From NCBI GenBank assembly GCA_018820315.1, contig JAHJOQ010000019.1:1-64000 (forward strand): a DNA stretch of 64,000 bases, given 5' to 3'. Made by a program: the position numbers and the translations under genes. The stretch is from Candidatus Zixiibacteriota bacterium (GTDB lineage Bacteria > Zixibacteria > MSB-5A5 > JAABVY01 > JAHJOQ01). Positions 20,818-34,874 of the stretch are shown one piece after another (positions within the stretch are counted from its first letter, which is position 1; each line of letters starts with the position of its first letter). Below the pieces are notes generated by a model. It had not been told where the DNA came from and searched no databases. It saw only the letters and a program-made list of their open reading frames with translations.

Positions 20818-20949
20818 TGAATTTCTTGTGGACCCATGCAAGTCTCTGTGTCGGGGAGCACATCCGCATTTCCAGCGCTCATTGCCTCTGCACCCGCTGC
20901 CAGGATGGCCATTCACTCCAACGGGACCTCACGGCACTCAGAATAACCT

Positions 20950-20977
20950 TGACAGTTTGACTCTTGTTATTATATTT
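20950..20977 (+). promoter_or_regulatory. Promoter of the aromatic amino acid supraoperon
   Basis: A perfect TTGACA (20950-20955) lies 16 nt from TATATT (20972-20977, 5 of 6). With the -10 box at its standard -12 to -7 position the transcript would start at 20984, exactly the A of the leader-peptide ATG. This implies a leaderless leader-peptide mRNA; no ribosome-binding site is found before that ATG, which agrees. Confidence 0.75.
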
Positions 20978-20983
20978 ACTGCA

Positions 20984-21085
20984 TGACAAGAGATATCTCA
21001 TTCGGACCGCTATTCACCGAGCCTGCCCACAAGTTACAGTACTATTACTGGCGCTGGTGCATGCTCCCGACTATGATCGGATAGT
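20984..21085 (+). CDS. trpL: Attenuator leader peptide with Tyr3-Trp-Arg-Trp run
   Basis: A 33-codon frame opens at ATG 20984 and stops at TAG 21083. Codons 20-22 are Tyr (TAC TAT TAC), codon 23 and codon 25 are Trp (TGG), giving LQYYYWRWC. Trp is otherwise rare, so the cluster is the classic signature of a trp leader peptide. The stop codon lies inside the 5' arm of the antiterminator (21077-21087), so a ribosome that finishes translation masks that arm. A ribosome stalled at codons 20-25 ends about 20-35 nt before it and leaves it free. The three Tyr codons suggest that tyrosyl-tRNA charging may be sensed as well as tryptophanyl-tRNA; the operon makes both amino acids. The name is by function, not by homology. 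Confidence 0.8.
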
Positions 21086-21159
21086 GGCTGTTTGAGAACG
21101 TAAGTCAAAAGAAGATAAAGTTTTAAGCTCACTATCCGATGAAGATAGTGAGCTTTTTT
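21077..21159 (+). terminator. trp attenuator: antiterminator/terminator switch
   Basis: Three segments compete. Segment A, ATCGGATAGTG (21077-21087), is perfectly complementary over 11 bp to segment B, CACTATCCGAT (21130-21140). Segment B also belongs to the terminator: arms AAGCTCACTATC (21125-21136) and GATAGTGAGCTT (21144-21155) form a perfect 12-bp stem with a 7-nt loop, with six T ending at 21159. A:B and the terminator cannot coexist. With high charged tRNA the ribosome reaches the stop in A and the terminator forms before trpE; with low charging it stalls upstream, A pairs with B and transcription proceeds. This is what the sequence predicts; no obvious protector pairing upstream of A was found. 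Confidence 0.88.
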
Positions 21160-21173
21160 CATAGGTGATATCG

Positions 21174-22640
21174 ATGAATCTACTCGAAATTTTGAAAGAA
21201 CCGGAATCAGGAAAGCCGATAGAGCTGGATCCAACAGTTCTGGAGCTGCCGGGCGATTTGGAAACGCCTGTCTCAGCCTATCTGAAGCTGGAGTCAGTTG
21301 GTGCGAAATTCCTCCTCGAGAGCGCGGAGAGTCCCAAATCGGTCGGTCGGTATACATTCATCGGGATTTCCCCCACTCACAGGATCGACATCCTTCGTGA
21401 TTGCTGTCGAATCGAAGGGCGTGACGGCAAGCTGGATATCCCTCATGCATCGGATGATGCGCCTTTCACGGCGCTACGGCAAATTCTGGCGAGGATATCG
21501 ATTTCCCGGGATGTGCCGGAGATGCGGCTTCTAGGCGGACTGGTCGGATATGCAGGCTACAACTGCGTCAGCTTCTTCGAACCGAGAATACCATTTCCTG
21601 ACAACCGTGATGAGGTGCTCGGATCGTTCTATCTGGTCGACACTCTGCTGGTCTTCGATCATTTCAGCCGCAGAATCAAAGTGATTTCTCTCACCGAGAG
21701 CGGGAATGAAGATTCTCTGAGGCGCTCGAAAGAGCTGATCGACAAAATCAGTGCAGCCCTTCACGGTCCGGTGCGCATTCCTCAGACAATGGCTATGGCC
21801 GCTAATTCCGAATTTGTGCCGAACATGAAGCGGGATGAATTCGAAAATATGGTCGAGGAAGCGCGGAAGAACATCTTTGCAGGCAATGTCTTTCAGATCG
21901 TAACGTCTCAGGTTTTCTCGGGTGAAACGGGAGCCGACAGTTTCCAAATATACCGCGCCCTGCGAATGCTGAATCCGTCGCCCTACATGTTCTATCTGAA
22001 ATTTGATGATCTTGACTTGATAGGGTCCTCTCCAGAAGCGCTGGTGAAGCTCGAGGATGGACGTGCAATCCTGAGACCGATAGCAGGAACTCGCCGTCGT
22101 GGCCACACCGAAGAAGAGGACGCAATGATGTCCGAAGAGCTCGCCAAAGATGAGAAAGAACTGGCTGAGCACGTTATGCTGGTCGACCTCGGGAGAAACG
22201 ACCTCGGTAGAATCTGCAAATACGGCTCGGTCACAGTACCTGAATTCAAGAAGCTGGAATACTACTCGCATGTCATCCACCTGACATCGACTGTAACGGG
22301 TAAGCTCAGGGACGACGCCGATCAATTCGATCTCTTTCGCGCGGCGTTTCCCGCAGGCACTGTCACCGGTGCGCCAAAAGTGCGCGCAATGGAGCTAATC
22401 AATGAATTCGAGCCAACAAAGAGAGGCCCCTACGCCGGAAGTGTCGGCTACTTCTCACTGTCGGGCAATCTCGATATGTGCATTGCCATTCGTACAATTA
22501 TCAAACGAGGCCGTCAGGTCAGCCTTCAGGCTGGAGCCGGCATAGTCGCGGACTCGGTGCCAAACCTGGAATACAAGGAGACCCTGAATAAAATAGCAGC
22601 GATCAAGGAAGCTATCAGAATCGCAGAGGAGGGTTTCTGA
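21174..22640 (+). CDS. trpE: Anthranilate synthase component I
   Basis: I start at ATG 21174, which has AGGTGA 5 nt upstream; an in-frame GTG at 21165 overlaps that site. The 488-aa product converts chorismate to anthranilate with ammonia supplied by TrpG. The N-terminal regulatory motif LLESAE (about residue 44) is the tryptophan feedback-inhibition site. The chorismate-binding core has FQIVTSQVF, SPEALVKLEDGRAILRPIAG, HVMLVDLGRNDLGRI and FPAGTVTGAPKVRAMELI. It is the first structural gene after the attenuator and shares the TGATG stop/start with trpG. Regulation therefore appears to be double: attenuation of mRNA and feedback of enzyme. Confidence 0.97.
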   Translation: MNLLEILKEPESGKPIELDPTVLELPGDLETPVSAYLKLESVGAKFLLESAESPKSVGRYTFIGISPTHRIDILRDCCRIEGRDGKLDIPHASDDAPFTALRQILARISISRDVPEMRLLGGLVGYAGYNCVSFFEPRIPFPDNRDEVLGSFYLVDTLLVFDHFSRRIKVISLTESGNEDSLRRSKELIDKISAALHGPVRIPQTMAMAANSEFVPNMKRDEFENMVEEARKNIFAGNVFQIVTSQVFSGETGADSFQIYRALRMLNPSPYMFYLKFDDLDLIGSSPEALVKLEDGRAILRPIAGTRRRGHTEEEDAMMSEELAKDEKELAEHVMLVDLGRNDLGRICKYGSVTVPEFKKLEYYSHVIHLTSTVTGKLRDDADQFDLFRAAFPAGTVTGAPKVRAMELINEFEPTKRGPYAGSVGYFSLSGNLDMCIAIRTIIKRGRQVSLQAGAGIVADSVPNLEYKETLNKIAAIKEAIRIAEEGF

Positions 22641-23206
22641 TGATCCTCTTCATCGACAATTACGATTCATTCGTATATAATCTTGTGCAGTATGTCGGTG
22701 CCGTAACTCCCGACCTGCAAATCGCCCGAAACGACCAGATCACTATTGAAGAAATCGAGAATCTCAAGCCCGACAAGATCGTCATATCGCCCGGACCGGG
22801 TCATCCGAGTGAAGCCGGAATTTCCAACGATGTTATCAAGAGGTTCTACAAAGAAATCCCAATTCTCGGCATCTGCCTTGGGCATCAGGCAATCGGGCAC
22901 AGTTTCGGCGCAAAGGTCGATCTCGCTGAGCGACTCCTGCATGGAAAAACATCGCCCATATACCACCGCGAAACCGGTATCCTGCGTGGCCTCCCAAATC
23001 CGTTCCTCGCCACGCGATATCATTCGCTGGCGGTAATCGAGGAGACTCTGCCGAAAGAACTCGAATCTATGGCATACACCTCCGACGGTGAGATTATGGG
23101 ACTGCGGCACGTAGAATATCCATTGTTTGGATTGCAGTTCCATCCGGAGTCGATTCTCACAACCGATGGAAAACAGATTATCGCAAACTTCCTGAACTGG
23201 GTATGA
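22640..23206 (+). CDS. trpG: Anthranilate synthase component II (glutamine amidotransferase)
   Basis: The 188-aa class I amidotransferase overlaps trpE by one base (TGATG). It hydrolyses glutamine and channels ammonia to TrpE. Triad: Cys in GICLGHQAIGH (about residue 80), His and Glu in LQFHPESIL (about 168-172); oxyanion region SPGPGHP near 51. Since no separate pabA is present here, it may also serve 4-amino-4-deoxychorismate synthase, as in Bacillus, but this is inference. The start overlaps are consistent with translational coupling and equal subunit amounts. Confidence 0.97.
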   Translation: MILFIDNYDSFVYNLVQYVGAVTPDLQIARNDQITIEEIENLKPDKIVISPGPGHPSEAGISNDVIKRFYKEIPILGICLGHQAIGHSFGAKVDLAERLLHGKTSPIYHRETGILRGLPNPFLATRYHSLAVIEETLPKELESMAYTSDGEIMGLRHVEYPLFGLQFHPESILTTDGKQIIANFLNWV

Positions 23207-23209
23207 TAT

Positions 23210-24229
23210 ATGGCCGACGAGTACCTTAAGAAAATTGTGAATGGCGAAGACCTGAGCCAGGGAGAATCTCGCGAGATGATGCTGGCCGTAGGAAGAGGCG
23301 AGTACACTCCTGTTCATGTCGCCGCAATATTGACCGCCCTGAAGGTTAAGGGTGAGACCGTAGCCGAGATCGCCGGATGCGCAGCGGCGTTTCGAGAGCT
23401 TGCAGTGCGCGTTCCGCACGGAATCGCGAAGGAAGTCTTCGACTGCTGCGGCACTGGCGGCGACTGCGCCGGTACATTCAACATTTCCACGGCGGCGGCA
23501 TTGGTAACAGCTGCGATGGGTGTTGCTACCGCGAAGCACGGAAATCGCGCGGTATCCTCTAAATCGGGGAGTGCGGATGTAATCGAAGCACTCGGCATTG
23601 GAATCGACATGAGCGCTGAAGATGCGGCGCGATGCCTCGAGCAAACAGACTTCTGCTTTCTCTTTGCACCGAATTTCCATCCCGCCATGAAGCATGTCGC
23701 CCCGGTTCGACGTGAACTGGGGATCCCAACTCTGTTCAATCTGCTTGGGCCACTCTTGAATCCAGCGGGATGCACGCATCAGATAATCGGCACACCCGAC
23801 TGCAGCAGAGCGGGAATAATCGCCGAGGCTGCACATCTGATGGGACTGAAAAACGTGATGTCCTTCCATAACGATTTAGGCATCGATGAGATGATAGATG
23901 GTTCTGAGTGCTGTATACACAGAACGAGACGAGATGGAGTCGACATGCGAACGCTGCAAATCAGCAACGGAAGCAGATCCAATATCAAAGGGCTGAAAGG
24001 CGGCGGACCGGAGGAAAACGCGGCAATAATCATGAGCATATTAGAAGGTGAAAACTCGATTCGCAGCAACACTGTCGCACTGAATGCAGCCATCGGACTA
24101 GTCGAAATCGGCAGATTCGCTAATCTCGATGATGCAAGGGAAGCTTGCGCAGAAGCATTGAAATCGGGTAAAGTCCTGCAGAAGCTCAACGAGATCAGAG
24201 AATTCACCGGGGGAGCAAGTAATGCTTAG
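23210..24229 (+). CDS. trpD: Anthranilate phosphoribosyltransferase
   Basis: The 339-aa product transfers phosphoribose from PRPP to anthranilate. Signatures: PRPP-binding CCGTGGDCAGTFNIST (about 78-93), KHGNRAVSSKSGSADVIEALG (about 107-127), FAPNFHPAMKHVAPVRRELG (about 152-171) and FNLLGPLLNPA. It begins 4 nt after trpG with only a weak ribosome-binding site, so it is probably translated by coupling. It overlaps trpC by 8 nt. It is not fused to trpG, unlike E. coli. Confidence 0.97.
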   Translation: MADEYLKKIVNGEDLSQGESREMMLAVGRGEYTPVHVAAILTALKVKGETVAEIAGCAAAFRELAVRVPHGIAKEVFDCCGTGGDCAGTFNISTAAALVTAAMGVATAKHGNRAVSSKSGSADVIEALGIGIDMSAEDAARCLEQTDFCFLFAPNFHPAMKHVAPVRRELGIPTLFNLLGPLLNPAGCTHQIIGTPDCSRAGIIAEAAHLMGLKNVMSFHNDLGIDEMIDGSECCIHRTRRDGVDMRTLQISNGSRSNIKGLKGGGPEENAAIIMSILEGENSIRSNTVALNAAIGLVEIGRFANLDDAREACAEALKSGKVLQKLNEIREFTGGASNA

Positions 24230-25001
24230 TGAACTTGCACAACACACAAGAGAACGGTGGCAGAGTGTCGACAGGAAGGCGCTGACCGAAAAATACACCC
24301 GAATGATAGAATCAGTACGCGCTCCACGATCATTGATACAGGAGATTCAGAAGGATCAGATGCTATCGTTTCTGTTCGAAATAAAACGAAAGTCGCCTTC
24401 GAAAGGGGAAATGAACTCCACGATCAATCCGGTCCGGCAGGCGCTTCTATATCAAGAGTATCACGCGGCTGGCGTATCGGTTATCACCGAAGAGAAGCAC
24501 TTTGGTGGTTCGCTTGATGATCTGAGTGAAGTATCCGCTACGGTGGACATCCCGGTTCTGAGAAAAGATTTTGTAATTGACAAACTTCAGGTTCTTGAGG
24601 CACGCGCCCATGGTGCAGACGTGATTTTGCTGATAGTGAAACTGCTGGCTGAGGAGACGGCGGACTACCTGCGTCTCTGCGCTGAATATGGTCTGGAAGC
24701 GATAGTGGAGATACATTCTGAAGATGAGCTGCAGATTGCCCGTACCGCCGGAGCAAAGATCATCGGCATCAACAATCGCAATCTGGATACACTTGAAATC
24801 GATCTGGACACGACCGCGAAGCTTCTTCCGAAAATTCCCGCAGGCCACATCGTGATATCGGAATCCGGAATCACCGACAGGAAATCAGTCGACAGCATGA
24901 GAGTGCTCGGTGTTGATGCTGTCCTCATCGGATCTGTGCTTTCACTCGCCGAATCTGTCGAAGCGAAACTCGAGGAATTGACTGAATGTCGACGCAGATA
25001 A
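24222..25001 (+). CDS. trpC: Indole-3-glycerol-phosphate synthase
   Basis: A 259-aa TIM-barrel enzyme that cyclises carboxyphenylamino-deoxyribulose phosphate to indole-3-glycerol phosphate. Catalytic and binding motifs: FEIKRKSPSKGE (about 52-63, catalytic Lys), VITEEKHFGGSLDDL, LRKDFVIDKLQV (second catalytic Lys), EIHSEDEL, GINNRNLDTLEIDL and ISESGITDRKSV. GGGGGAG precedes the ATG inside the end of trpD. It overlaps trpF by 16 nt but is a separate protein, not the TrpC-TrpF fusion of enterobacteria. Confidence 0.97.
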   Translation: MLSELAQHTRERWQSVDRKALTEKYTRMIESVRAPRSLIQEIQKDQMLSFLFEIKRKSPSKGEMNSTINPVRQALLYQEYHAAGVSVITEEKHFGGSLDDLSEVSATVDIPVLRKDFVIDKLQVLEARAHGADVILLIVKLLAEETADYLRLCAEYGLEAIVEIHSEDELQIARTAGAKIIGINNRNLDTLEIDLDTTAKLLPKIPAGHIVISESGITDRKSVDSMRVLGVDAVLIGSVLSLAESVEAKLEELTECRRR

Positions 25002-25585
25002 AAATATGCGGCATCACGAAGTCGATCGATGCAGAGAAATGTCTCGAATGCGGAGTCGATTTCATCGGCATGGTTTTCGCAGAATCCCCGCGTCAGGTCT
25101 CTATCGAGAATGCTCTTACGATATCGAAAAAGATGTATGGCAAGATCCCGATTGTCGGCGTATTCGATCACTATGATCCGAACACCGTAAACAGTGTAAC
25201 GTCCAGAGTGAAGCTTGACTATCTGCAAGTTTACTATCATCCTGACAACGGACGGCTGCCGACGCCTCCCATCCCGCTCATCTCGTCCATCTGGATGGAT
25301 CAGAGCGAACTCAAGCTGCCGCCATATCCGTGCAGATATCTCTTACTCGATTTCAAAAAGCTCGGAAGCATCGATGGTCTGTCTGACGAGGACTGGACTC
25401 GAGTGAATGAGAAATATGACGTATTCCTCGCGGGAGGCATCGCTCCGGATAATGTTGCAGGCATAACAGAATACTATAAACCTTACGGAATCGACTCGGC
25501 ACGCGGCACTGAATCAGCGCCCGGGGTGAAGGATCATGCGAAGATCGAACAGCTTGTAGAAAGAGTCAGGGAATGTTCAAAGTAG
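24986..25585 (+). CDS. trpF: Phosphoribosylanthranilate isomerase
   Basis: A 199-aa TIM-barrel isomerase with [18 protein letters not shown] at the N-terminus (catalytic Cys in KICG, about residue 7), [14 protein letters not shown], and [14 protein letters not shown] and [19 protein letters not shown] at the C-terminus; the usual catalytic Asp region (about 125) reads [10 protein letters not shown]. It converts N-(5-phosphoribosyl)anthranilate to the ribulose form. GAGGA lies 8 nt before the ATG, within trpC. It overlaps trpB by 13 nt. Confidence 0.95.
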
Positions 25586-26763
25586 ATAAGCGTGGGTACT
25601 ACGGTGAATTTGGCGGCCGTTTTGTTCCGGAGACGCTTATGCCCGCCCTCCACGAGCTGGAGACAGCTTTCCAGAAGTACTGGAAAAACAGAGAGTTCAA
25701 AGCTGAATTCAGGATGCTGCTGCGCGATTTCTCCGGACGCCCGACGCCGCTCTATCATGCGAGAAACCTCTCCGCGAAGTGGGGAGCGACCATCTTTCTG
25801 AAGAGGGAAGATCTCAACCACACAGGCGCGCACAAGATCAACAACACAATAGGTCAGGCTTTGCTGGCAAGGCACCTCGGCAAAAAGCGTATCATAGCAG
25901 AGACCGGTGCCGGTCAGCACGGAACAGCTACGGCTGCAACATGTGCCCTGATGGGACTGAAATGCACCGTATATATGGGTCGACATGATGCCGAGAGACA
26001 GCATCCCAATCTTCTCAGAATGCGAATGCTCGGCGCAGAGGTGATTGAGGTCAATGAGGGTACGGCTACACTTAAGGATGCAACCACTGCCGCCATACAG
26101 GACTGGGTGACTAACGTGCGCACGACTCACTATATCATAGGCTCCACTGTTGGACCGCACCCGTTTCCGGATATTGTCCGGAAATTTCAGTCGGTCATCG
26201 GTGACGAGACCAAGAAGCAAATAATCGCGAAATCGGGGCGCCTGCCTGACCATATAGTAGCATGTGTCGGAGGTGGATCGAACGCAATTGGCATCTTCAA
26301 CGCATTTCTGGATGATGCGAATGTGTCGCTTACCGGTGTGGAATCGGCGGGATGTGGACTGTCGTCGGGCAGGCATGCGGCTACCCTGCTGAGGGGAAGC
26401 CCGGGCGTGCTGCACGGATCGTACAGCTATTTGCTTCAGGATCGGGAAGGCCAGGTTCTCTTGACCGAGACACTATCAGCCGGTCTCGACTATCCGGGCG
26501 TGGGGCCCGTGCACAGCTATCTCAAAGATCAGAAACGTGTTGACTACAAGACTGTCACGGACAAAGAGGCGGTAGCCGCATTCGGTGAGCTCAGCCGTCT
26601 CGAAGGCATAATTCCAGCACTTGAATCGAGCTTCGCGCTCGCATACGCTAAGAAGATGAGCAGGAAGCTGGAAAAGAACGATATCGTGATCGTGAATCTC
26701 TCCGGTCGCGGCGACAAAGACCTGGAAAGCATAAGTGCGTATGAGCAGAAGCATCACAAGTAG
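25573..26763 (+). CDS. trpB: Tryptophan synthase beta chain
   Basis: The 396-aa PLP enzyme joins indole and serine. [18 protein letters not shown] at the N-terminus is typical of TrpB1. The PLP lysine lies in [20 protein letters not shown] (about residue 88), followed by [12 protein letters not shown], and the phosphate-binding [12 protein letters not shown] lies near 230-241. GCGLSSGRH near 258 and LSGRGDKD at the end complete the signature. It overlaps trpF upstream and trpA downstream, and forms the alpha2beta2 complex with TrpA that channels indole. Confidence 0.97.
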
Positions 26764-27541
26764 TCTTACTGAGCTGCAGTCGAACGGCAAGAAGGCGCTG
26801 ATTCCGTACCTCACGTGCGGTTACCCGTCATCCGACGATTTCATCGAATACGCCGCTCTACTCGAAGCCACCGGTGCAGATATGCTCGAAATCGGTTTCC
26901 CACATTCCGATCCGATGGCGGATGGTCCGACGATCAAGTACACATCCCACCAGGCACTCTCAAACGGAATGAATGGGAAAAAGATGTTCTCAGCAATCGA
27001 AAAGGTTGCTTCTCGAACGTCAATACCCCTGATTGCAATGAGCTATATCAACACGATCATGAAGCCGGGAATAGAGAGCTTTGTTGGGCGTTGCAAAGAC
27101 GCAGGAATCACCGGCATCATCATCCCCGATCTGACACTGGAAGAGAAAAACCGAGTAGTAGGCGCATTCAGGAAGAGTGGGATTCAGACGATATTTCTCG
27201 TGGCACCGACAACATCGTCTGAAAGGATCAAACAGATAGCCAGTGCATCATCTGGCTTTCTATACCTCGTCTCAGTCACCGGGATCACCGGCGCAAGGAG
27301 AGTGCTTCCTAAAGAGACGGAACTGTTCATATCCAGAGCGCGTGCACTCTGCCCTATCCCCGTCTGTGTAGGATTCGGAATATCGAACGGAAGGATTGCG
27401 CGGAGAATGAGCCGGGCATCAGATGGTGTAATCGTAGGCAGCGCTCTTCTGGATTGTATCAGATACGCGACTGGAAAGCGCAATGCAAGAAGAGATCTTT
27501 CGTCGCTCATGACCGATCTTAGAAAAGGACTGGATTTATGA
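26735..27541 (+). CDS. trpA: Tryptophan synthase alpha chain
   Basis: A TIM barrel of 268 aa (GTG 26735) or 266 aa (ATG 26741); both starts lie inside trpB, and GGAAAG is at better spacing for the GTG. It cleaves indole-3-glycerol phosphate. Catalytic Glu is in [20 protein letters not shown] (about 47-66) and the catalytic Asp in IIPDLTLEE (about residue 130). [13 protein letters not shown] and GFGISNGR are phosphate-binding loops. It overlaps aroH by 4 nt (ATGA). Confidence 0.95.
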
Positions 27542-27909
27542 AAGTCCGAGGAATACGCGGGGCAAACGTCGCAAAAGCTAACACCCGTGAGGCAATATAC
27601 GAAGCAACCAGCGAACTCATTCAGGCAATAATCGAGGCAAACGAGATTGAACCGGAGGAGATCGCGTCCATCTTTCTGACTGCGACGAGAGATTTGGATG
27701 CAGATTTCCCGGCTTACGCTGTGCGCGATCTTGGATACAGCTCCATACCTCTGCTCTGCGCAAGTGAGATAGATGTCAAAGGAGCAATGAAATCTCTAAT
27801 CAGGATTCTTATACATGCTAACACCAACAAGAATCAGAATGAGATCAGGCATGTTTATCTTGGGGGGTCCGATAAGCTGCGACCCGATCTTTTTGGGAGT
27901 GACGGATGA
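27538..27909 (+). CDS. aroH: Chorismate mutase, monofunctional AroH type
   Basis: The 123-aa protein belongs to the trimeric AroH fold known from Bacillus subtilis, not the helical AroQ type. Motifs: VRGIRGANVAKANTREAIYEAT at the N-terminus, TATRDLDADFPAYAVRDLG (about 46-64) and PLLCASEIDVKGAM (about 70-83); the Arg and Glu residues of these stretches line the AroH active site. It converts chorismate to prephenate, the branch toward tyrosine and phenylalanine. Its position just after trpA and before aroF marks the switch from Trp to common and Tyr genes. Confidence 0.93.
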   Translation: MKVRGIRGANVAKANTREAIYEATSELIQAIIEANEIEPEEIASIFLTATRDLDADFPAYAVRDLGYSSIPLLCASEIDVKGAMKSLIRILIHANTNKNQNEIRHVYLGGSDKLRPDLFGSDG

Positions 27910-28922
27910 TGATTGTTGTCATGAGAAAGGACGCCACCCTCAAACAGATCGGTAGCGTCATAAAGACGATCGAGGAACTTGGTTTCAGGCCGCATATGTC
28001 TGAGGGTGAGGAAAAGACTATCATCGGCGTGATCGGTGATGAGAGGAAAGTATCCAAAGATGCACTTGCAGTTCTGCCCGGCGTAGAAAGCGTCGTTCCG
28101 ATTCTCAAACCGTTCAAGCTGGCATCGCGCGAATTCAAACCGGACAAGACAGTCGTCAAGCTCAACGGCGCTGAAATCGGCGGCGAGCGCATATCCGTCA
28201 TTGCGGGACCCTGTGCAATCGAGACTTACGATCAGGTACTGGAGGCTGCGAAGTCGGCCAAACGGGCGGGTGCGCAGATATTGCGCGGAGGAGCTTTCAA
28301 ACCGAGAACATCGCCATACAGCTTCCAGGGGCTCGGAGAAGAAGGGCTCAAAATACTCAAGTCAGTCGGTGAGAAAGTCGGCCTTCCCGTTATAACCGAG
28401 GTCATGACGCCGGAATTGGCGGACCTGATAGCAGACTATGTCGACATTCTGCAGGTCGGCGCGAGGAACATGCAGAATTTCGCGTTGCTCGAAAAAGTAG
28501 GCAAGATATCGAAGCCGATTCTTTTGAAGCGAGGTATGATGTCGACTATCGAGGAGCTCCTGATGTCGGCGGAATACATCATGGCCAATGGGAATCGTAA
28601 TGTGATACTCTGTGAGCGTGGAATCAGGACTTTCGAGAAGTACACGAGAAATACTCTCGATATGTCGGCTGTTCCCGTAATTCAGAAGCTCTCGCATTTG
28701 CCTGTGATCGTCGATCCATCGCACGCCACCGGTGAAAGGTATATGATAGCGCCCCTTTCGTTCGGAGCGATTGCCTCTGGCGCTGACGGCCTCATGATCG
28801 AGATTCATCCCGACCCGGACAAAGCCCTCTGCGACGGATACCAGAGTTTGCCCCTCCCACAGTTTGAAGAAATGATGGCTCAGCTGGCAGCAGTTGCGGC
28901 TTCGGTTAACAGGAAGATTTGA
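27906..28922 (+). CDS. aroF: DAHP synthase, type I-beta with N-terminal regulatory domain
   Basis: The 338-aa product catalyses the first step of the shikimate pathway, joining phosphoenolpyruvate and erythrose 4-phosphate. Residues about 1-68 form the ferredoxin-like (ACT-like) regulatory domain known from Thermotoga (IVVMRKDATLKQIGSVIK at the start); in that family it mediates Tyr/Phe inhibition. The barrel has SVIAGPCAIETYDQ, LRGGAFKPRTSPYSFQGLGE, QVGARNMQNFALL, LLKRGM, CERGIRTFEKYTRNTLDM and DPSHATG, all typical. It overlaps aroH (ATGA-like overlap) with GGGAG upstream. So the pathway's entry enzyme is under the trp/tyr attenuator. Confidence 0.95.
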   Translation: MMIVVMRKDATLKQIGSVIKTIEELGFRPHMSEGEEKTIIGVIGDERKVSKDALAVLPGVESVVPILKPFKLASREFKPDKTVVKLNGAEIGGERISVIAGPCAIETYDQVLEAAKSAKRAGAQILRGGAFKPRTSPYSFQGLGEEGLKILKSVGEKVGLPVITEVMTPELADLIADYVDILQVGARNMQNFALLEKVGKISKPILLKRGMMSTIEELLMSAEYIMANGNRNVILCERGIRTFEKYTRNTLDMSAVPVIQKLSHLPVIVDPSHATGERYMIAPLSFGAIASGADGLMIEIHPDPDKALCDGYQSLPLPQFEEMMAQLAAVAASVNRKI

Positions 28923-29806
28923 TGGGAAGTCGATTTTCTCGTGTGGGAATAGCCGGGCTGGGCCAGATAGGCGGTTCAATGGCGCTGGCCTTCAGATTGA
29001 ACCAAGCTCCATACTCTGTTTCGGGCTTCGACATCGATGATCGACTGATACTGGCAGCCAAACGCAGGCGGATGATCTCAGACGGTTTCGATTCCGCTGT
29101 TGATTTAATAGAAAATGTTGATATACTTATTGTGGCTTTGCCGATGTTCGCTATTCATCAGTTGCTCAGAGAGAACCGCAAGGCTCTCGACTCAAAGATT
29201 CTGGTGATGGACACCGGCAGCACAATGCAGGACGTGATCAAGACAGCGGAAAACTTGAAGATGACGAATTTTGTCGGAGGACATCCATACGCAGGGACGG
29301 AGATGATCGCTCCAGCGGCCTGGAACGGAAAGATGTTCGACAACCAGGCTTTTTTTCTGTCGAAGCCTGCGAAGTGTGGCAAGAAGGCGTACGATAGGGC
29401 GCTTTCGTTAGTGCGCAATATTGGCGCCATCCCACAAGATATCGACCGGGAAGATCATGACCGCATGTTTGCATTCGCATCCGGCCTGCCGCATATAATC
29501 GCGTATGCGCTTGTGGCCTCACAGGCTGACGCAAGGCGCAGGAAGAAGATCGATTGGGATTTCCTGGCACATAGCTTTGCATCCACAACCAGAGTCGCTA
29601 AATCATCTCCTCAGCCTGTAGCACAATTCTTGTGGCAAAACCGCAAGCATCTGAAAAGAGAAATTGCTATATTCAAGCGTAAGCTTGAGGAGTTCTCCGA
29701 GCATCTGTCACAGGACACCATTGAAGAGTTCCTGTCGGAGATATCTTATTTGAAACAAATGAAGGACAATCTGGAGCGAACAGATGGCCCAATTACTTCG
29801 CGGTAG
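28922..29806 (+). CDS. tyrA: Prephenate dehydrogenase
   Basis: I choose ATG 28922, which shares TGATG with the aroF stop and has AGGAAG 5 nt upstream. The 294-aa product has an NAD-binding Rossmann start (VGIAGLGQIGGSMALAFR), DTGSTMQDVI (about 98-107) and GGHPYAGTE (about 119-127), the catalytic-His region of TyrA, and the helical dimerisation domain. It oxidatively decarboxylates prephenate to 4-hydroxyphenylpyruvate. No ACT domain is attached, and no chorismate mutase fusion, since aroH is separate. It overlaps aroA by 23 nt. Confidence 0.92.
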   Translation: MGSRFSRVGIAGLGQIGGSMALAFRLNQAPYSVSGFDIDDRLILAAKRRRMISDGFDSAVDLIENVDILIVALPMFAIHQLLRENRKALDSKILVMDTGSTMQDVIKTAENLKMTNFVGGHPYAGTEMIAPAAWNGKMFDNQAFFLSKPAKCGKKAYDRALSLVRNIGAIPQDIDREDHDRMFAFASGLPHIIAYALVASQADARRRKKIDWDFLAHSFASTTRVAKSSPQPVAQFLWQNRKHLKREIAIFKRKLEEFSEHLSQDTIEEFLSEISYLKQMKDNLERTDGPITSR

Positions 29807-31049
29807 AGTTAACCTGCCAGGCGATAAGTCGATTTCGCATCGCGCAGTGCTGCTCTCTTCGATTTCGGAAGGTAACTGCACAATTCGCAATCTTGCGACC
29901 GGAAAGGACCTGGGATCGACGGTAGACGCTGTCAGACAGCTTGGCGTAGAGATTTCGGAGTCAGAACCGTCGGTGCTCCAGATATCCGGCGTCGGTATGA
30001 ACAATTTCGTGAAGCCGGAAGGGAAACTTAATTGTGGTAATGCCGGCACTTCACTCAGGCTGCTTCTGGGATTGCTTGCCGGATCAAACATATCCGCGAA
30101 GCTCGACGGCGACAGTTCACTAAGGAAACGACCGGTTAATCGCGTCGCTATTCCACTCCGACATATGGGTGCGGATATTGAGACAACGGACCGCGGCACA
30201 TGTCCGGTCACGGTAATCGGTAAGCGGCTCTCAGGGATAGGATATGCGCTGCCTGTGGCGTCGGCTCAGGTCAAATCGGCTATTTTGCTGGCGGCGCTTT
30301 CCGCTTCAGGCGAAACTGAGATCGTAGAACCGACCCCCACTCGGGATCACACGGAAAGAATGCTGATATCTCTCGGTGTACCGCTGACCACTTCGGACTG
30401 CACCGTATCTACCGGACCAGCTTCGCGGATTCCTGCTTTCGATATAGACATCCCCGGTGATATATCATCCGCTGCGTTCGTTGTCTTGCCGGCACTTCTG
30501 CTTCCCAACTCGGAAATCGTCCTTGAAAACGTATGCCTCAATCCGACAAGATGCGGTTATCTGCAGATACTCCGCCGGATGGGGGCTGACATTGCTACCG
30601 ACGAGATTGCGATCAAGCGCGGCGAGCCGGTTGGAAAGCTGTTCGTGCGGGCATCGAGGATGCACTCATCTCGATGTGACGATATACCGGTGGCTACGTT
30701 TATTGATGAAGTTCCGATTCTGGCACTCGCCGCAACACAAGCCGACGGCGTCACACGAATATCAAGACTCGGTGAACTGAGAGTGAAGGAATCTGACAGG
30801 CTTTCCGGAATTGTCACGGTGCTCGGCTCAGCCGGTGCGAAAATACAGGTTGAAGAAGACGACCTTGTGATTTGCGGCCCCACTAAGCTCTTCCCGCCGG
30901 ATGTAGGTCCGCAGCACGATCACAGGATGGCGATGCTCGTCGAGACTATTAATCTGATCTCAGAGGGTCAACTCACTGATAGCTATGCCGATGCTATCTC
31001 GATATCCTTTCCGGAGTATTACGAGGTCATGAAGAGCCTGCTTGACTGA
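29784..31049 (+). CDS. aroA: 5-enolpyruvylshikimate-3-phosphate synthase
   Basis: A 421-aa two-domain inside-out barrel enzyme. Motifs: LPGDKSISHRAVLLSSISEG (about 12-31), LNCGNAGTSLRLLLGLLAG (about 79-97; contains the LxxGNAGTxxR consensus), DGDSSLRKRPVNRV, and RVKESDRLSG (about 331-340). GGAG lies 8 nt before the ATG. It adds enolpyruvate to shikimate 3-phosphate. In the second motif Gly-Asn-Ala-Gly-Thr-Ser is intact; whether it is glyphosate-sensitive class I or class II cannot be decided by eye. It shares TGATG with aroE. Confidence 0.96.
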   Translation: MAQLLRGRVNLPGDKSISHRAVLLSSISEGNCTIRNLATGKDLGSTVDAVRQLGVEISESEPSVLQISGVGMNNFVKPEGKLNCGNAGTSLRLLLGLLAGSNISAKLDGDSSLRKRPVNRVAIPLRHMGADIETTDRGTCPVTVIGKRLSGIGYALPVASAQVKSAILLAALSASGETEIVEPTPTRDHTERMLISLGVPLTTSDCTVSTGPASRIPAFDIDIPGDISSAAFVVLPALLLPNSEIVLENVCLNPTRCGYLQILRRMGADIATDEIAIKRGEPVGKLFVRASRMHSSRCDDIPVATFIDEVPILALAATQADGVTRISRLGELRVKESDRLSGIVTVLGSAGAKIQVEEDDLVICGPTKLFPPDVGPQHDHRMAMLVETINLISEGQLTDSYADAISISFPEYYEVMKSLLD

Positions 31050-31879
31050 TGACTAGGCAAGAAGCAAAGATTTTCGGAATTCTCGGAGGCGGTATCTCTT
31101 ACTCACTATCTCCGCAGATATTCAGGATTCTATTTGACAAGTTCGGACTGCCTCATGGCTACTACCTATTCGACATTGCAGAAAAGAACCCAGGGAAATT
31201 CATCGAGTCTGCGAAACTGCTCGGTGTCTCCGGATTCAATGTCACAGTGCCGTTCAAATGCAGCATCATGTCGCATCTGGACACACTCCACAGAACGGCC
31301 TCGGACAGCCACTCAGTCAATCTTGTCAAAGCCCACAATGGCTCTCTGACAGGCTACAACACTGACATATTCGGGATCCGTGAGGTCTTTCGGGAGATGG
31401 GGCTTTCGGCATGTGCAAACAAGCGCATTCTGATAATAGGTGCCGGCGGCACAGGCCGAACCGCACTCAGGTTTTTTCAATCCAAGCGGGCCAGGAACAT
31501 CACAATCGTTAATCGTAGCAGGAGACGACTGGGCAGTTTGCTGCAGGCCTTTGGATTTGATGGTTCTTCCGGGACGGTTCGTGCATACGAATCCTCGCGC
31601 CTGAAGACGAAGCTAGGCGACGCTGAGTGGGACATCGTGTTCAACGCAACACCCGTTCCGACCGAACAGATCATCCCGTCATCCTCATTCAGCCCGGACT
31701 CGGTGATATTTGAGGCGGCATATCGGAGTAATCGAAGATCGTCGCTCGCAGATAGAACAGTTGGCGGAATTGACATGTTAATATATCAAGCCCTGAGAGG
31801 GTTCGAAATATTTACAGCTTCGAAAATCAAAGATTACGACGCTTTGAAGACGGAGATCAAACGCAGCGTCGCTAAATGA
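31049..31879 (+). CDS. aroE: Shikimate dehydrogenase
   Basis: The 276-aa enzyme reduces 3-dehydroshikimate with NADPH. The substrate-binding SYSLSPQIF (about 18-26) and GVSGFNVTVPFKCSIM (about 58-73, with the catalytic Lys in VPFK) are present, followed by GYNTDIFGI and the Rossmann loop IIGAGGTGRTA. NRSRRR after the second strand is the usual NADP-preferring pattern. It starts at the TGATG shared with aroA and is followed by aroK after 28 nt. Confidence 0.95.
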   Translation: MTRQEAKIFGILGGGISYSLSPQIFRILFDKFGLPHGYYLFDIAEKNPGKFIESAKLLGVSGFNVTVPFKCSIMSHLDTLHRTASDSHSVNLVKAHNGSLTGYNTDIFGIREVFREMGLSACANKRILIIGAGGTGRTALRFFQSKRARNITIVNRSRRRLGSLLQAFGFDGSSGTVRAYESSRLKTKLGDAEWDIVFNATPVPTEQIIPSSSFSPDSVIFEAAYRSNRRSSLADRTVGGIDMLIYQALRGFEIFTASKIKDYDALKTEIKRSVAK

Positions 31880-31907
31880 ACTGAGACTATCGCATGGATA
31901 GCGAAGA

Positions 31908-32435
31908 ATGTTGCCAAATGTCAACATAGTCCTTGCTGGACCGATGGGTTCCGGAAAGACATCTGTCGGTGAAGTAGTAGCCTCGAAACTCGGCAGAGAG
32001 TTTCGTGACACGGACAGAATGATTGAAGAAATCACCGGGTTGTCAATCGTGCGAATCTTCTCCGAGAGAAGTGAAACATATTTCCGATCTATGGAGCGCG
32101 AAGTCGCGAAAGTAATAGCCCATCACAAGAATCTTGTAGTGGCTGTCGGCGGGGGGATGACCGTTCCCGAGGAGAACTTCCTGACTCTGTCGGCAAGTGG
32201 GTTGATCATCTGTCTGACAGCTTCGCAGAAGGTGCTGGCAAACCGCCTCAGTGACCATTCAGGGCGACCGATGCTGGAGGGTCACGATCTCAAAACCAGA
32301 CTCCCGGAAATACTGAGAGAGCGTCGGAAGGCATACAATAGGATTCCATTCCTGATTGAGACTGACGGCATCGAGATAGAATCCGTTGCAGAGAGAGTAA
32401 TCATCCTCTATCAGGAGCAGACAGCAGGTGTTTGA
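31908..32435 (+). CDS. aroK: Shikimate kinase
   Basis: A 175-aa P-loop kinase with Walker A GPMGSGKTS (about 11-19), FRDTDRMIEE (about 32-41, shikimate-binding Asp), FRSMEREV (Arg of the shikimate site) and GGGMTVPEEN. The lid Arg is in LSDHSGRPMLEG. It phosphorylates shikimate at the 3-OH. The start has only a weak ribosome-binding site and follows aroE after 28 nt, the largest gap within the operon. It overlaps aroB by 8 nt. Confidence 0.93.
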   Translation: MLPNVNIVLAGPMGSGKTSVGEVVASKLGREFRDTDRMIEEITGLSIVRIFSERSETYFRSMEREVAKVIAHHKNLVVAVGGGMTVPEENFLTLSASGLIICLTASQKVLANRLSDHSGRPMLEGHDLKTRLPEILRERRKAYNRIPFLIETDGIEIESVAERVIILYQEQTAGV

Positions 32436-33528
32436 CACAGATGCAAAATTCTCATTCCCGCATTTAACATGCAGGGTAATGGCCGGAAGCGGCGCACCGG
32501 AAACCATTGCAGCCTTTGTCAACAAAATCGACTGTTCATCAGCGTTTATTGTAACCGACAAGAATGTGTACAGACATCACGGTCATCTCTTCAGATCATT
32601 GTTGCAGAATATAGAATGCCCATCCGCAATGCATGTCATCCCCGCTGGCGAGATGACAAAGAGCTACCGCTATCAAATCGAAATCCACAAGTGGCTTCTT
32701 GATAGCGGAGCCGACAGGAATTCCGTACTGCTGGGCGCCGGCGGTGGTGTCGTATGCGACCTCGTGGGATTCGCGGCTGCAACCTTCATGCGCGGCATCT
32801 CACACATCCTGATTCCGACAACGCTTGTTGCTCAGATTGATGCTGCAATCGGCGGCAAGAACGGTATAAACCTGCCGAATGCAAAGAATATGATTGGTAC
32901 GGTGAAGCAACCGCTGTCGATAATTGCCGATCCACTCTTTCTATCGACTTTGAAGCGAGAACATGTTCGAGAAGGCATGTCAGAGCTTGTAAAGATGGCT
33001 CTGGTAAGATCACGAAAACTGGCAGGCCTGCTTGATTCTTTCCGCGAAGCGGGCACCGGTGGCGGTGACTCCTTCTTACCGCGGATAATCGAGGTTGGGA
33101 TAAGACTGAAGCTTGAAATCGTAAAGAGAGACCCATTCGAAAGCGGATTGCGTAAGACTTTGAATTTCGGCCACACTACGGCGCATGCGCTTGAGGTGAT
33201 CGGCAGCTATCGACGCCAAATGCCTCATGGAAAGGCGGTTGCGTTCGGTATGCTTGTCGCGCTGGAGATGTCGCAGAAGCTCTGTTCGCTCTCCGACGAG
33301 ACAAGAATATGGGGGCATGACCAGATACGCAGTCTCTATAAGTCGTTTCCGATTGCAGATTCGAGTCTTGAGGCAGTTTGGGAAGTGATCAGTCGCGACA
33401 AGAAACGAGTAGGGCGTGATATACAATTCGTTCTTCTCGAGTCATTTGCCAAGCCTGTTCTGCGGACGGTCAATCGAAGAGAGTTCAGCCGGGCATTTAT
33501 GAAAGTATCGAAATCATGGAGTAAGTAG
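32428..33528 (+). CDS. aroB: 3-dehydroquinate synthase
   Basis: The 366-aa product begins with a GTG inside aroK, with AGGAG about 9 nt upstream. It converts DAHP to 3-dehydroquinate using NAD and a metal. Motifs: GAGGGVVCDLVGFAAATFMRG (about 107-127), IPTTLVAQIDAAIGGKNGINLP (about 130-151), KREHVREGMSELVKMA (metal ligand Glu) and LNFGHTTAHALE (metal-ligand His, about 247-258). Followed by aroQ after a single base. Unlike in many bacteria, it is not adjacent to aroC, which is absent. Confidence 0.95.
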   Translation: MFDTDAKFSFPHLTCRVMAGSGAPETIAAFVNKIDCSSAFIVTDKNVYRHHGHLFRSLLQNIECPSAMHVIPAGEMTKSYRYQIEIHKWLLDSGADRNSVLLGAGGGVVCDLVGFAAATFMRGISHILIPTTLVAQIDAAIGGKNGINLPNAKNMIGTVKQPLSIIADPLFLSTLKREHVREGMSELVKMALVRSRKLAGLLDSFREAGTGGGDSFLPRIIEVGIRLKLEIVKRDPFESGLRKTLNFGHTTAHALEVIGSYRRQMPHGKAVAFGMLVALEMSQKLCSLSDETRIWGHDQIRSLYKSFPIADSSLEAVWEVISRDKKRVGRDIQFVLLESFAKPVLRTVNRREFSRAFMKVSKSWSK

Positions 33529-33529
33529 T

Positions 33530-33970
33530 ATGGATAATATCACTATCATAAACGGGCCGAATCTCAATCTGCTTGGAAAACGCGAGCCGGAGATATACGG
33601 CAACCAGACACTCGAGCAGATAAACAAATCGCTGACGATCACCGCTTCCAAGCTCGAACTCAACCTGTCGTTCTTCGAGTGCAACTCCGAGGGTGAGATA
33701 ATCGACATCATCCAGGCAACCGGAAGCAAGTCCGTCGGACTTATAATCAATCCCGGCGGATACTCGCACACGTCGGTAGCCATATTGGATGCACTGAAAA
33801 TGCTTTCGATTCCCGTAATAGAAGTTCACCTCTCGAACTTGTACAAGCGTGAAGAATTCCGCCACAAATCTATTACAGCTTCAGCTGCCTGGGGAGTTAT
33901 CTCCGGATTCGGGAGTCACGGTTATCACCTCGCACTGCATGCTCTCAGGAGACGGCTCGATGAAGAATAG
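33530..33970 (+). CDS. aroQ: 3-dehydroquinate dehydratase, type II
   Basis: A 146-aa dodecameric type II dehydroquinase. NGPNLNLLGKREPEIYG (about 6-22) contains the catalytic Arg and Tyr, followed by NSEGEIIDIIQ and INPGGYSHTSVAILDAL (about 71-87), VEVHLSNLYKREEFRHKS here reading IEVHLSNLYKREEFRHKS with the catalytic His, and GFGSHGYHLAL. GGAG precedes the ATG. It overlaps the following aminotransferase gene by 11 nt. Confidence 0.95.
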   Translation: MDNITIINGPNLNLLGKREPEIYGNQTLEQINKSLTITASKLELNLSFFECNSEGEIIDIIQATGSKSVGLIINPGGYSHTSVAILDALKMLSIPVIEVHLSNLYKREEFRHKSITASAAWGVISGFGSHGYHLALHALRRRLDEE

Positions 33971-34874
33971 GATGCTCGCATATTTCGAAGGCCGGATAGT
34001 CCCAGAAGAACGGGCACAAATTTCCATCAAGACTCACGCCTTCAATTACGGTACCTGCGCTTTCGAAGGCATGAAGGCATTTCATCTCGGCGATCAGAAG
34101 TGGAATTTGTTTCGAATCGACGATCATGTGCGGCGGCTTCTTCGCACATGCGGAATCATGCACATCGAACCGCCCGCCACTTACGATGAGATCACAGACA
34201 GCATCAAGGAACTTGTCCTGAAGAACGGACTCGATAGCGACATTTATATACGCCCAATGATATACTGCTCACTTCAGGGTGTCGGACTTGGCAAGCTGTC
34301 GCCAACAGAGCTCGCGATTTTCTGCCTGCCAGTTGACAGAGTCAGGCACAAGGTTTTCCGTACAAGGTTCTCCAAAACCGTTCGAATACCTCCGGAGGCG
34401 ATTCCATCCCACGGCAAGATCACCGGCATGTACGTCAACTCGTTCATCGCACAGCGAGAAGTCGCCGAGCAGGGGGACGAGATTGCCCTTATGAAGAGCA
34501 TCGATGGATATGTCACAGAAGCTTTCGGGATGAACCTGTTCGTTGTCAAGAAAAATCGCTGCATCACATCGCCGGTTTCTATTGGTGTGCTCGATGGAAT
34601 CACGCGCAGATCGATTATGAAGTTCTGTGTCGAAGACCTCGGAATGACTGTAGAAGAGCGCTTGTACACACCGCGATTTCTCCATAATGCTGATGAGATA
34701 TTCATATGCGGAACTGGTGCGGGAGTAAACTCTGTGATTTCGGTCGACGGTCGAAACATCGGGAATGGAAATCGTGGGGAAGTAACGCGGAAGCTCTTCA
34801 AATTATACTGGTCGGTCATTCATGCTGACAATTCTGACTACAACTCCTGGTACAATGTCATCTCGAGAAGATGA
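33960..34874 (+). CDS. Class IV (branched-chain type) aminotransferase, last gene of aromatic operon
   Basis: The real start is ATG 33960 inside aroQ (AGGAGA 7 nt upstream), not the longer frame from 33849 that runs through aroQ; this gives 304 aa. It is a PLP fold-IV transaminase: FNYGTCAFEGMKAF (about 25-38), catalytic Lys in HGKITGMYVNSF (about 155-166), EAFGMNLFVVKK and GTGAGVNSVISVDGR. The family's best-known member is IlvE. Here it lacks ilv neighbours and is last in a Trp/Tyr operon, so I infer that it transaminates 4-hydroxyphenylpyruvate (and perhaps phenylpyruvate). IlvE enzymes can do this at low rate. Substrate is not provable from sequence. A palindrome ATGATGGTCCCATCAT spans both convergent stop codons. 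Confidence 0.85.
   Translation: MKNRMLAYFEGRIVPEERAQISIKTHAFNYGTCAFEGMKAFHLGDQKWNLFRIDDHVRRLLRTCGIMHIEPPATYDEITDSIKELVLKNGLDSDIYIRPMIYCSLQGVGLGKLSPTELAIFCLPVDRVRHKVFRTRFSKTVRIPPEAIPSHGKITGMYVNSFIAQREVAEQGDEIALMKSIDGYVTEAFGMNLFVVKKNRCITSPVSIGVLDGITRRSIMKFCVEDLGMTVEERLYTPRFLHNADEIFICGTGAGVNSVISVDGRNIGNGNRGEVTRKLFKLYWSVIHADNSDYNSWYNVISRR

Follow-up and report, generated by a model that had tools for sequence, protein, structure and literature searches.

A probable ribosome-mediated attenuator reading tyrosine and tryptophan codons ahead of a combined aromatic amino acid operon in Zixibacteria

What controls an operon that encodes the synthesis of both tryptophan and tyrosine, when the short reading frame ahead of it carries three adjacent Tyr codons followed by Trp-Arg-Trp? 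A locus in a metagenome-assembled genome (MAG) of Zixibacteria raises this question. The genome (G000) comprises 3.78 Mb in 173 contigs, and we analyzed a stretch of 64,000 nucleotides of its contig C19, referred to here as the window. A sequence-only reading of the same DNA had proposed a leaderless attenuator in which one switch may sense tyrosyl- and tryptophanyl-tRNA together. Here, we compare the leader of the window with its counterparts in a sample of the class that contained 133 searchable genomes, 23 of which carry a close TrpE, and ask whether its Tyr codons are part of the device.

The leader region and the operon behind it

The genes downstream of the leader lie on one strand in the order trpEGDCFBA-aroH-aroF-tyrA-aroA-aroE-aroK-aroB-aroQ, with short gaps or none between them (Table 1). 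As had been stated for the operon, it would make both amino acids, tyrA being located inside the trp operon, and the spacing leads us to infer that tyrA and the shikimate trunk are cotranscribed with the Trp branch. The gene upstream of the leader is on the opposite strand, and pheA is apart from the operon, on contig C136. At the end of the cluster, 3′ of aroQ, lies an open reading frame (ORF) resembling branched-chain aminotransferases (33849-34874; named from its translation only), which might supply the last transamination to Tyr.

The elements that the sequence-only reading had described upstream of trpE are present, with small corrections of position. The promoter precedes the leader ATG, which is at 20983 and not at 20984; the 33-codon frame has Tyr at codons 20 to 22 and Trp at codons 23 and 25; and the 12-bp terminator with its U-run lies just 5′ of trpE. 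The antiterminator of 11 bp, with the leader stop codon inside its arm, was also recovered, but arm A had been placed one position off: 21076-21086 is perfectly complementary to 21130-21140, and one added G-U pair extends the helix to 12 bp.

The leader combines features expected of a leader-peptide attenuator. Codons for amino acids that the operon produces are clustered in a short ORF as YYYWRW, and three adjacent Tyr with at least two Trp would occur in a random 33-mer of the operon's composition with a probability of ∼1.5e-6. The antiterminator and the terminator share arm B and are therefore mutually exclusive. Furthermore, the leader RNA folds with z = −4.5, and A:B pairing in the window exceeds that of dinucleotide shuffles (p = 0.002). 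An Rfam scan of the window returned no family at its gathering score; the Trp_leader model (RF00513) reached 15.8 bits at 21076-21161 against a gathering threshold of 41, and no T-box model matched the leader up to E = 5. By eye, 20983 is the sole ATG, GTG, or TTG in the leader frame from the in-frame TGA at 20950 to the Tyr codons. Translation of the Tyr and Trp codons from any other usual start is thereby excluded, and either the transcript includes 20983 or these codons are untranslated.

Table 1. Features of the leader and operon, in coordinates of the window
Feature	Position	Strand	Basis or detail
Sigma-70-type promoter TTGACA-N16-TATATT	20949..20976	+	11/12 consensus matches; TTGACA 20949-20954, spacer 16, TATATT 20971-20976, ATG 6 nt further on
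Leader peptide ORF, 33 codons, MTRDISFGPLFTEPAHKLQYYYWRWCMLPTMIG, predicted leaderless start 20983	20983..21084	+	No Shine-Dalgarno; stop TAG 21082-21084
Putative Tyr control codons 20-22, TAC TAT TAC	21040..21048	+	Sequence; Tyr content tracks tyrA linkage
Putative Trp-Arg-Trp control codons, TGG CGC TGG	21049..21057	+	Sequence; Trp run conserved in class; Trp23 21049-21051, Trp25 21055-21057
Antiterminator arm A, containing leader stop codon	21076..21087	+	Pairs with 21129-21140; covaries
Arm B (terminator 5′ side 21125-21136, antiterminator 3′ side 21129-21140)	21125..21140	+	
Arm C of terminator (21144-21155) and U-run (21154-21159)	21144..21159	+	12-bp terminator-like hairpin 21125-21136/21144-21155; six T
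trpE, first structural gene	21174..22640	+	TIGR00564 above cutoff
trpG, trpD, trpC, trpF, trpB, trpA	22640..27541	+	NCBIfam for trpG, D, B, A; trpC and trpF from translations
aroH (chorismate mutase), aroF (DAHP synthase)	27538..28922	+	TIGR01796, PRK08673/TIGR01361
tyrA, prephenate dehydrogenase	28925..29806	+	PF02153 over cutoff; NF006307 and other models below cutoffs
aroA, aroE, aroK, aroB, aroQ, common shikimate pathway	29784..33970	+	NCBIfam for aroA, aroB; aroE, aroK, aroQ from translations

Related units, antiterminator pairing, and ribosome position

Searching contigs with a single TrpE protein yielded one partial locus. Across Zixibacteria, 26 further complete units were recovered, 19 of them 5′ of trpE and 7 5′ of stand-alone aroH-aroF-tyrA operons, all with the same plan of promoter, short aromatic leader, and terminator; TTGACA-16-TATATT or -TATACT stands 5′ of nearly all of them. 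A leader of this plan precedes trpE wherever TrpE is of the close type and the upstream region is on the contig. The exceptions are G015 and G029, which have the lowest-scoring of the 23 close TrpE and in which trpE lies behind a dapF-like gene. No such leader was found where trpE is 3′ of dapF (L014-L030 and similar loci) or before the more distant trpE genes of the class genomes, and a phylum-wide search gained no units outside the class.

A Trp run is kept in every trp leader of the class, within cores that include YYWWWY (G026, G020), CYYWWYSY (G067), VYFWWY (G021), RYWWWY (G050, G043, G104), SYSYYWWWY (G111), NWWWW (G105), and SWWWW (G103). Relatives bear out the main checks proposed with the sequence-only reading: the frame, the kind of control codon, and A:B pairing with compensatory changes are conserved in them, and the exact codons 20 to 25 are not. 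The position of the stop codon inside the antiterminator arm, also among the features proposed for checking in related genomes, holds for the window and fails in most relatives.

In G111 (L053) and G109 (L058), trpE is preceded by two complete units in tandem, each with its leader and terminator; both units contain Tyr and Trp in G111, and both contain Trp without a Tyr run in G109. The effects of such tandem units would multiply if both work. In G110 (L141), a stretch of ∼240 nt between the leader terminator and trpE contains another open frame (MAQNLNKNSLNADWNDNRPKPCFEYN...), which may be the remnant of a second unit. The trpE match of G050 (L009) contains one in-frame TAG, either an assembly error or a real lesion.

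For each unit, the terminator was located by rule, and the stretch from the last control codon to the terminator was paired with arm B and compared with its own dinucleotide shuffles. Pairing beat the shuffles at p < 0.05 in 24 of 26 units (combined p ∼5e-31). Own A with own B averaged −21.7 kcal/mol, versus −15.8 kcal/mol with the B of other units (permutation p = 1e-5), a preference that persists when near-duplicates are dropped. In a 9-bp core that places 22 units in one register, 97% of pairs are standard, double changes affect five of the nine pairs (21 cells), and none of 500 shuffles reached the observed covariation score; sliding the partner by 1 to 3 columns lowers pairing to 27 to 74%. 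Because this core was extracted by hand in the best-pairing register, the cross-unit permutation provides the cleaner test. The sister genus (G001) has G-C in place of A-U at the first position of the helix and three G-U pairs at other positions of the 11 bp.

The median distance from the last control codon to the start of arm A is ∼12 nt, and the usual range is about 8 to 19 nt; a ribosome stalled at that codon would have its downstream edge roughly at the start of arm A. In masked folding of the window with a 30-nt ribosome footprint, at the stage when arm C has yet to emerge, the expected number of A:B pairs was 18.7 with a ribosome at Trp25 or at the first Tyr and 3.2 with a ribosome at the stop codon. 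The stop-state part of this behavior fits 15 of 26 units. In the other 11, which do not include the window, most of arm A is on the 5′ side of a ribosome at the stop codon and A:B is still able to form; a simple step in which the ribosome covers A does not fit these units, and another account of their nonstalled state is needed. When the complete RNA is folded to equilibrium, most units favor the terminator even with a stalled ribosome present, and the antiterminator must therefore act kinetically, during transcription.

The distance from promoter to start codon divides the 27 units. The −10 box lies ≤10 nt from the first possible ATG in 10 of them, all without a Shine-Dalgarno sequence, and a predicted 5′ untranslated region (UTR) of 14 to 21 nt occurs in 10, all with one; the remainder are downstream tandem units or have longer 5′ UTRs. 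Leaderless initiation predicts such a split. The predicted leaderless start of the window, as proposed earlier, draws its support from comparative geometry; leaderless trp leaders as such were already known.

Tyrosine codons, tyrA position, and other readings of the leader

The Tyr content of trp leaders follows the position of tyrA. Where tyrA is within the trp operon (the window, G067, G021, G050, G036, G111, G120, G110), 2 to 5 Tyr codons surround the Trp run, compared with 0 to 2 where it is not (G013, G103, G077, G043, G104, G105, G106, G109). Over these 16 genomes, the Mann-Whitney test gives p = 0.0017 with a counting window that was chosen after the sequences had been seen; permutation within families f8 and f18 gives p = 0.014, and counts over whole leaders give p = 0.003. 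Four genomes were left out (G026, G020, G001, G037): the trp operon of G020 runs off its contig, and tyrA is at or across contig breaks in G026 and G001. On the TrpE tree, the tyrA-linkage label needs at least three changes.

Composition gives the same picture. The trp leaders with linked tyrA are 10.6% Tyr and 7.5% Trp, those with tyrA elsewhere or absent are 4.0% Tyr and 10.1% Trp, and the window operon's own proteins are 2.3% Tyr and 0.4% Trp. The seven stand-alone aroH-aroF-tyrA leaders are 18.6% Tyr and 0.4% Trp, with 5 to 9 Tyr each. Two of the seven are in G077 and G105, where a separate aroH-aroF-tyrA operon has its own promoter, leader (MNNPVYMAALTFLLSYVLYYYSYRRTRESGLVPV and MNMYAHHIGFQPGYGSRYYRYYYYYNRQNDGGLAEFSSMR), and terminator; these leaders have 6 or 9 Tyr and no Trp, and the trp leaders of the same genomes have no Tyr. 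A class-wide aroH search added the other five (G055, G087, G102, G068, G025), with tyrA just 3′ of aroH on the same contig in all but G068, whose operon is cut by contig ends; no leader was found before aroH in family f3 or G106.

There are counterexamples: G043, G104, and G106 keep two Tyr by the Trp run with tyrA outside their trp operon, and tyrA was not found at all in G043 and G104. The prephenate dehydrogenase family PF02153 had no match in G013, G103, G043, G104, or G020, four of which are MAGs estimated at 92 to 100% completeness; they may therefore be without Tyr synthesis or rely on a divergent enzyme. Phe is also more frequent in linked leaders (5.9% versus 1.7%). Among 27 genomes, no clear Phe leader was found before pheA, so Phe is apparently not sensed in such a way, and we do not claim Phe sensing.

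As expected of a bivalent leader, Tyr codons are present where the operon makes Tyr. Their link to the position of tyrA, together with the Tyr-only leaders of stand-alone tyrA operons, supports a function for these codons and lends weight to the earlier suggestion that one switch senses Tyr and Trp. We consider it likely that Zixibacteria control Tyr synthesis by ribosome attenuation at Tyr codons and that leader codons are rewritten as operons fuse or split, with composite Tyr and Trp leaders in some cases, separate Trp-only and Tyr-only leaders in others, and tandem units in some lineages.

Might the two Trp codons of the window do all of the sensing, with the Tyr codons incidental or a relic? 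The Tyr-Trp-Trp-Trp-Tyr core is common in the class, even in the two genomes in which no tyrA was found, and Trp is the sole residue clustered in every trp leader, both of which would suit a Trp-only attenuator. That reading nevertheless appears unlikely, since it leaves Tyr content following tyrA through at least three changes of linkage, and since the stand-alone tyrA operons use a like device with Tyr replacing Trp, an indication that Tyr codons can serve as control codons by themselves.

We regard two further readings as highly improbable. A nascent-peptide arrest switch of the TnaC kind, in which the peptide senses a free amino acid in the ribosome, could be read into the D-S-G that many leaders share a few residues past the Trp run. 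We rejected this reading of the motif because D-S-G is the translation of conserved arm A nucleotides; the window reads the same nucleotides in another frame and loses it. The peptide is, moreover, poorly conserved outside the control codons, and the response that a biosynthetic operon requires is of the opposite sign. Slightly less credible still is a plain terminator of an upstream transcript accompanied by a chance ORF, with no regulation. Intrinsic terminators between genes are ordinary, but here the neighboring gene upstream is encoded on the other strand, the terminator is downstream of trpE's own promoter, and conservation, with covariation, extends over the ORF, its codons, and the antiterminator.

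Proposed mechanism and relation to known attenuators

We conclude that the element in the window is almost certainly a ribosome attenuator. It is very probably bivalent for Tyr and Trp: there is a good probability that Tyr is one of its signals, with the response to each amino acid predicted, and, judging from sequence, we are fairly confident in a transcription attenuator through which the ribosome reads the charging of both tyrosyl- and tryptophanyl-tRNA. In the mechanism that we propose, RNA polymerase would start at or beside the A of AUG 20983, and a ribosome would load on the leaderless 5′ end. Scarcity of charged tRNA-Tyr or tRNA-Trp would stall it at codons 20 to 25, leaving arm A, just past the ribosome, free to pair with arm B as it emerges; the terminator would then not form, and the Trp branch, the Tyr branch, and the shikimate trunk would be transcribed. 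With both tRNAs charged, the ribosome would reach the stop codon inside arm A and cover that arm, B would pair with C, and transcription would end 5′ of trpE.

If this is true, leader-peptide attenuators sense tyrosine in addition to the amino acids already known for them, and ribosome attenuation, in part with leaderless starts, extends to a phylum in which experimental genetics is almost absent. The class would also serve as a natural experiment on the evolution of a regulatory readout alongside operon content, in that the device exchanges its control codons as the downstream genes change, and the origin of multivalent leaders becomes directly testable by sequence comparison and a simple reporter. 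In the literature searched, the coverage of which is incomplete, we found no description of a Tyr-sensing or combined Tyr/Trp ribosome attenuator. The leaderless trp leader is already known, and Tyr sensing by a leader-peptide attenuator is apparently the new part.

In Escherichia coli, ilvGMEDA and thrABC are controlled by multivalent leaders, each of which reads two or more tRNAs cognate to products of the pathway; their codons are branched-chain or Thr/Ile, whereas those of the window are Tyr and Trp. Like the window, the trpL leader of E. coli (RF00513) has Trp codons in a short ORF, an antiterminator and a terminator that exclude each other, and a U-run before the trp operon. The window belongs to a different phylum and adds adjacent Tyr codons, and its A:B helix is itself the antiterminator, with no conserved pause hairpin established. 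Closer in their start are the leaderless trp leaders of Sinorhizobium meliloti (peTrpL; PMC7298713) and Streptomyces lividans (TrpL1; PMC8079986), whose ORFs begin at the first base of the transcript and contain tandem Trp codons. Leaderlessness is experimental there and predicted here; no Tyr codons are reported for either, and they control trpE(G) or trpE rather than an operon for Trp, Tyr, and the shikimate trunk.

With regard to tyrosine, the aroR leader of Corynebacterium glutamicum (Phe-Tyr-Phe) likewise encodes an aromatic peptide that includes Tyr and precedes a DAHP synthase operon (aroF), but it is reported to respond to Phe and not to Tyr (reviewed in PMC11802643) and has one Tyr, compared with 5 to 9 in the stand-alone tyrA leaders of Zixibacteria. 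In a survey of Actinobacteria (PMC1262725), the RNA control named for tyrosine is the T-box and not an attenuator. The tyrosine T-boxes of Gram-positive bacteria also respond at the RNA level to tRNA-Tyr charging, but by direct tRNA binding and without a leader peptide, and the window has no T-box match. Finally, tandem attenuators with two short leader ORFs in one leader are known from mgtCBR of Salmonella (PMC3641672); the signals there are different, whereas both units of G109 and of G111 are amino acid leader peptides of the same class.
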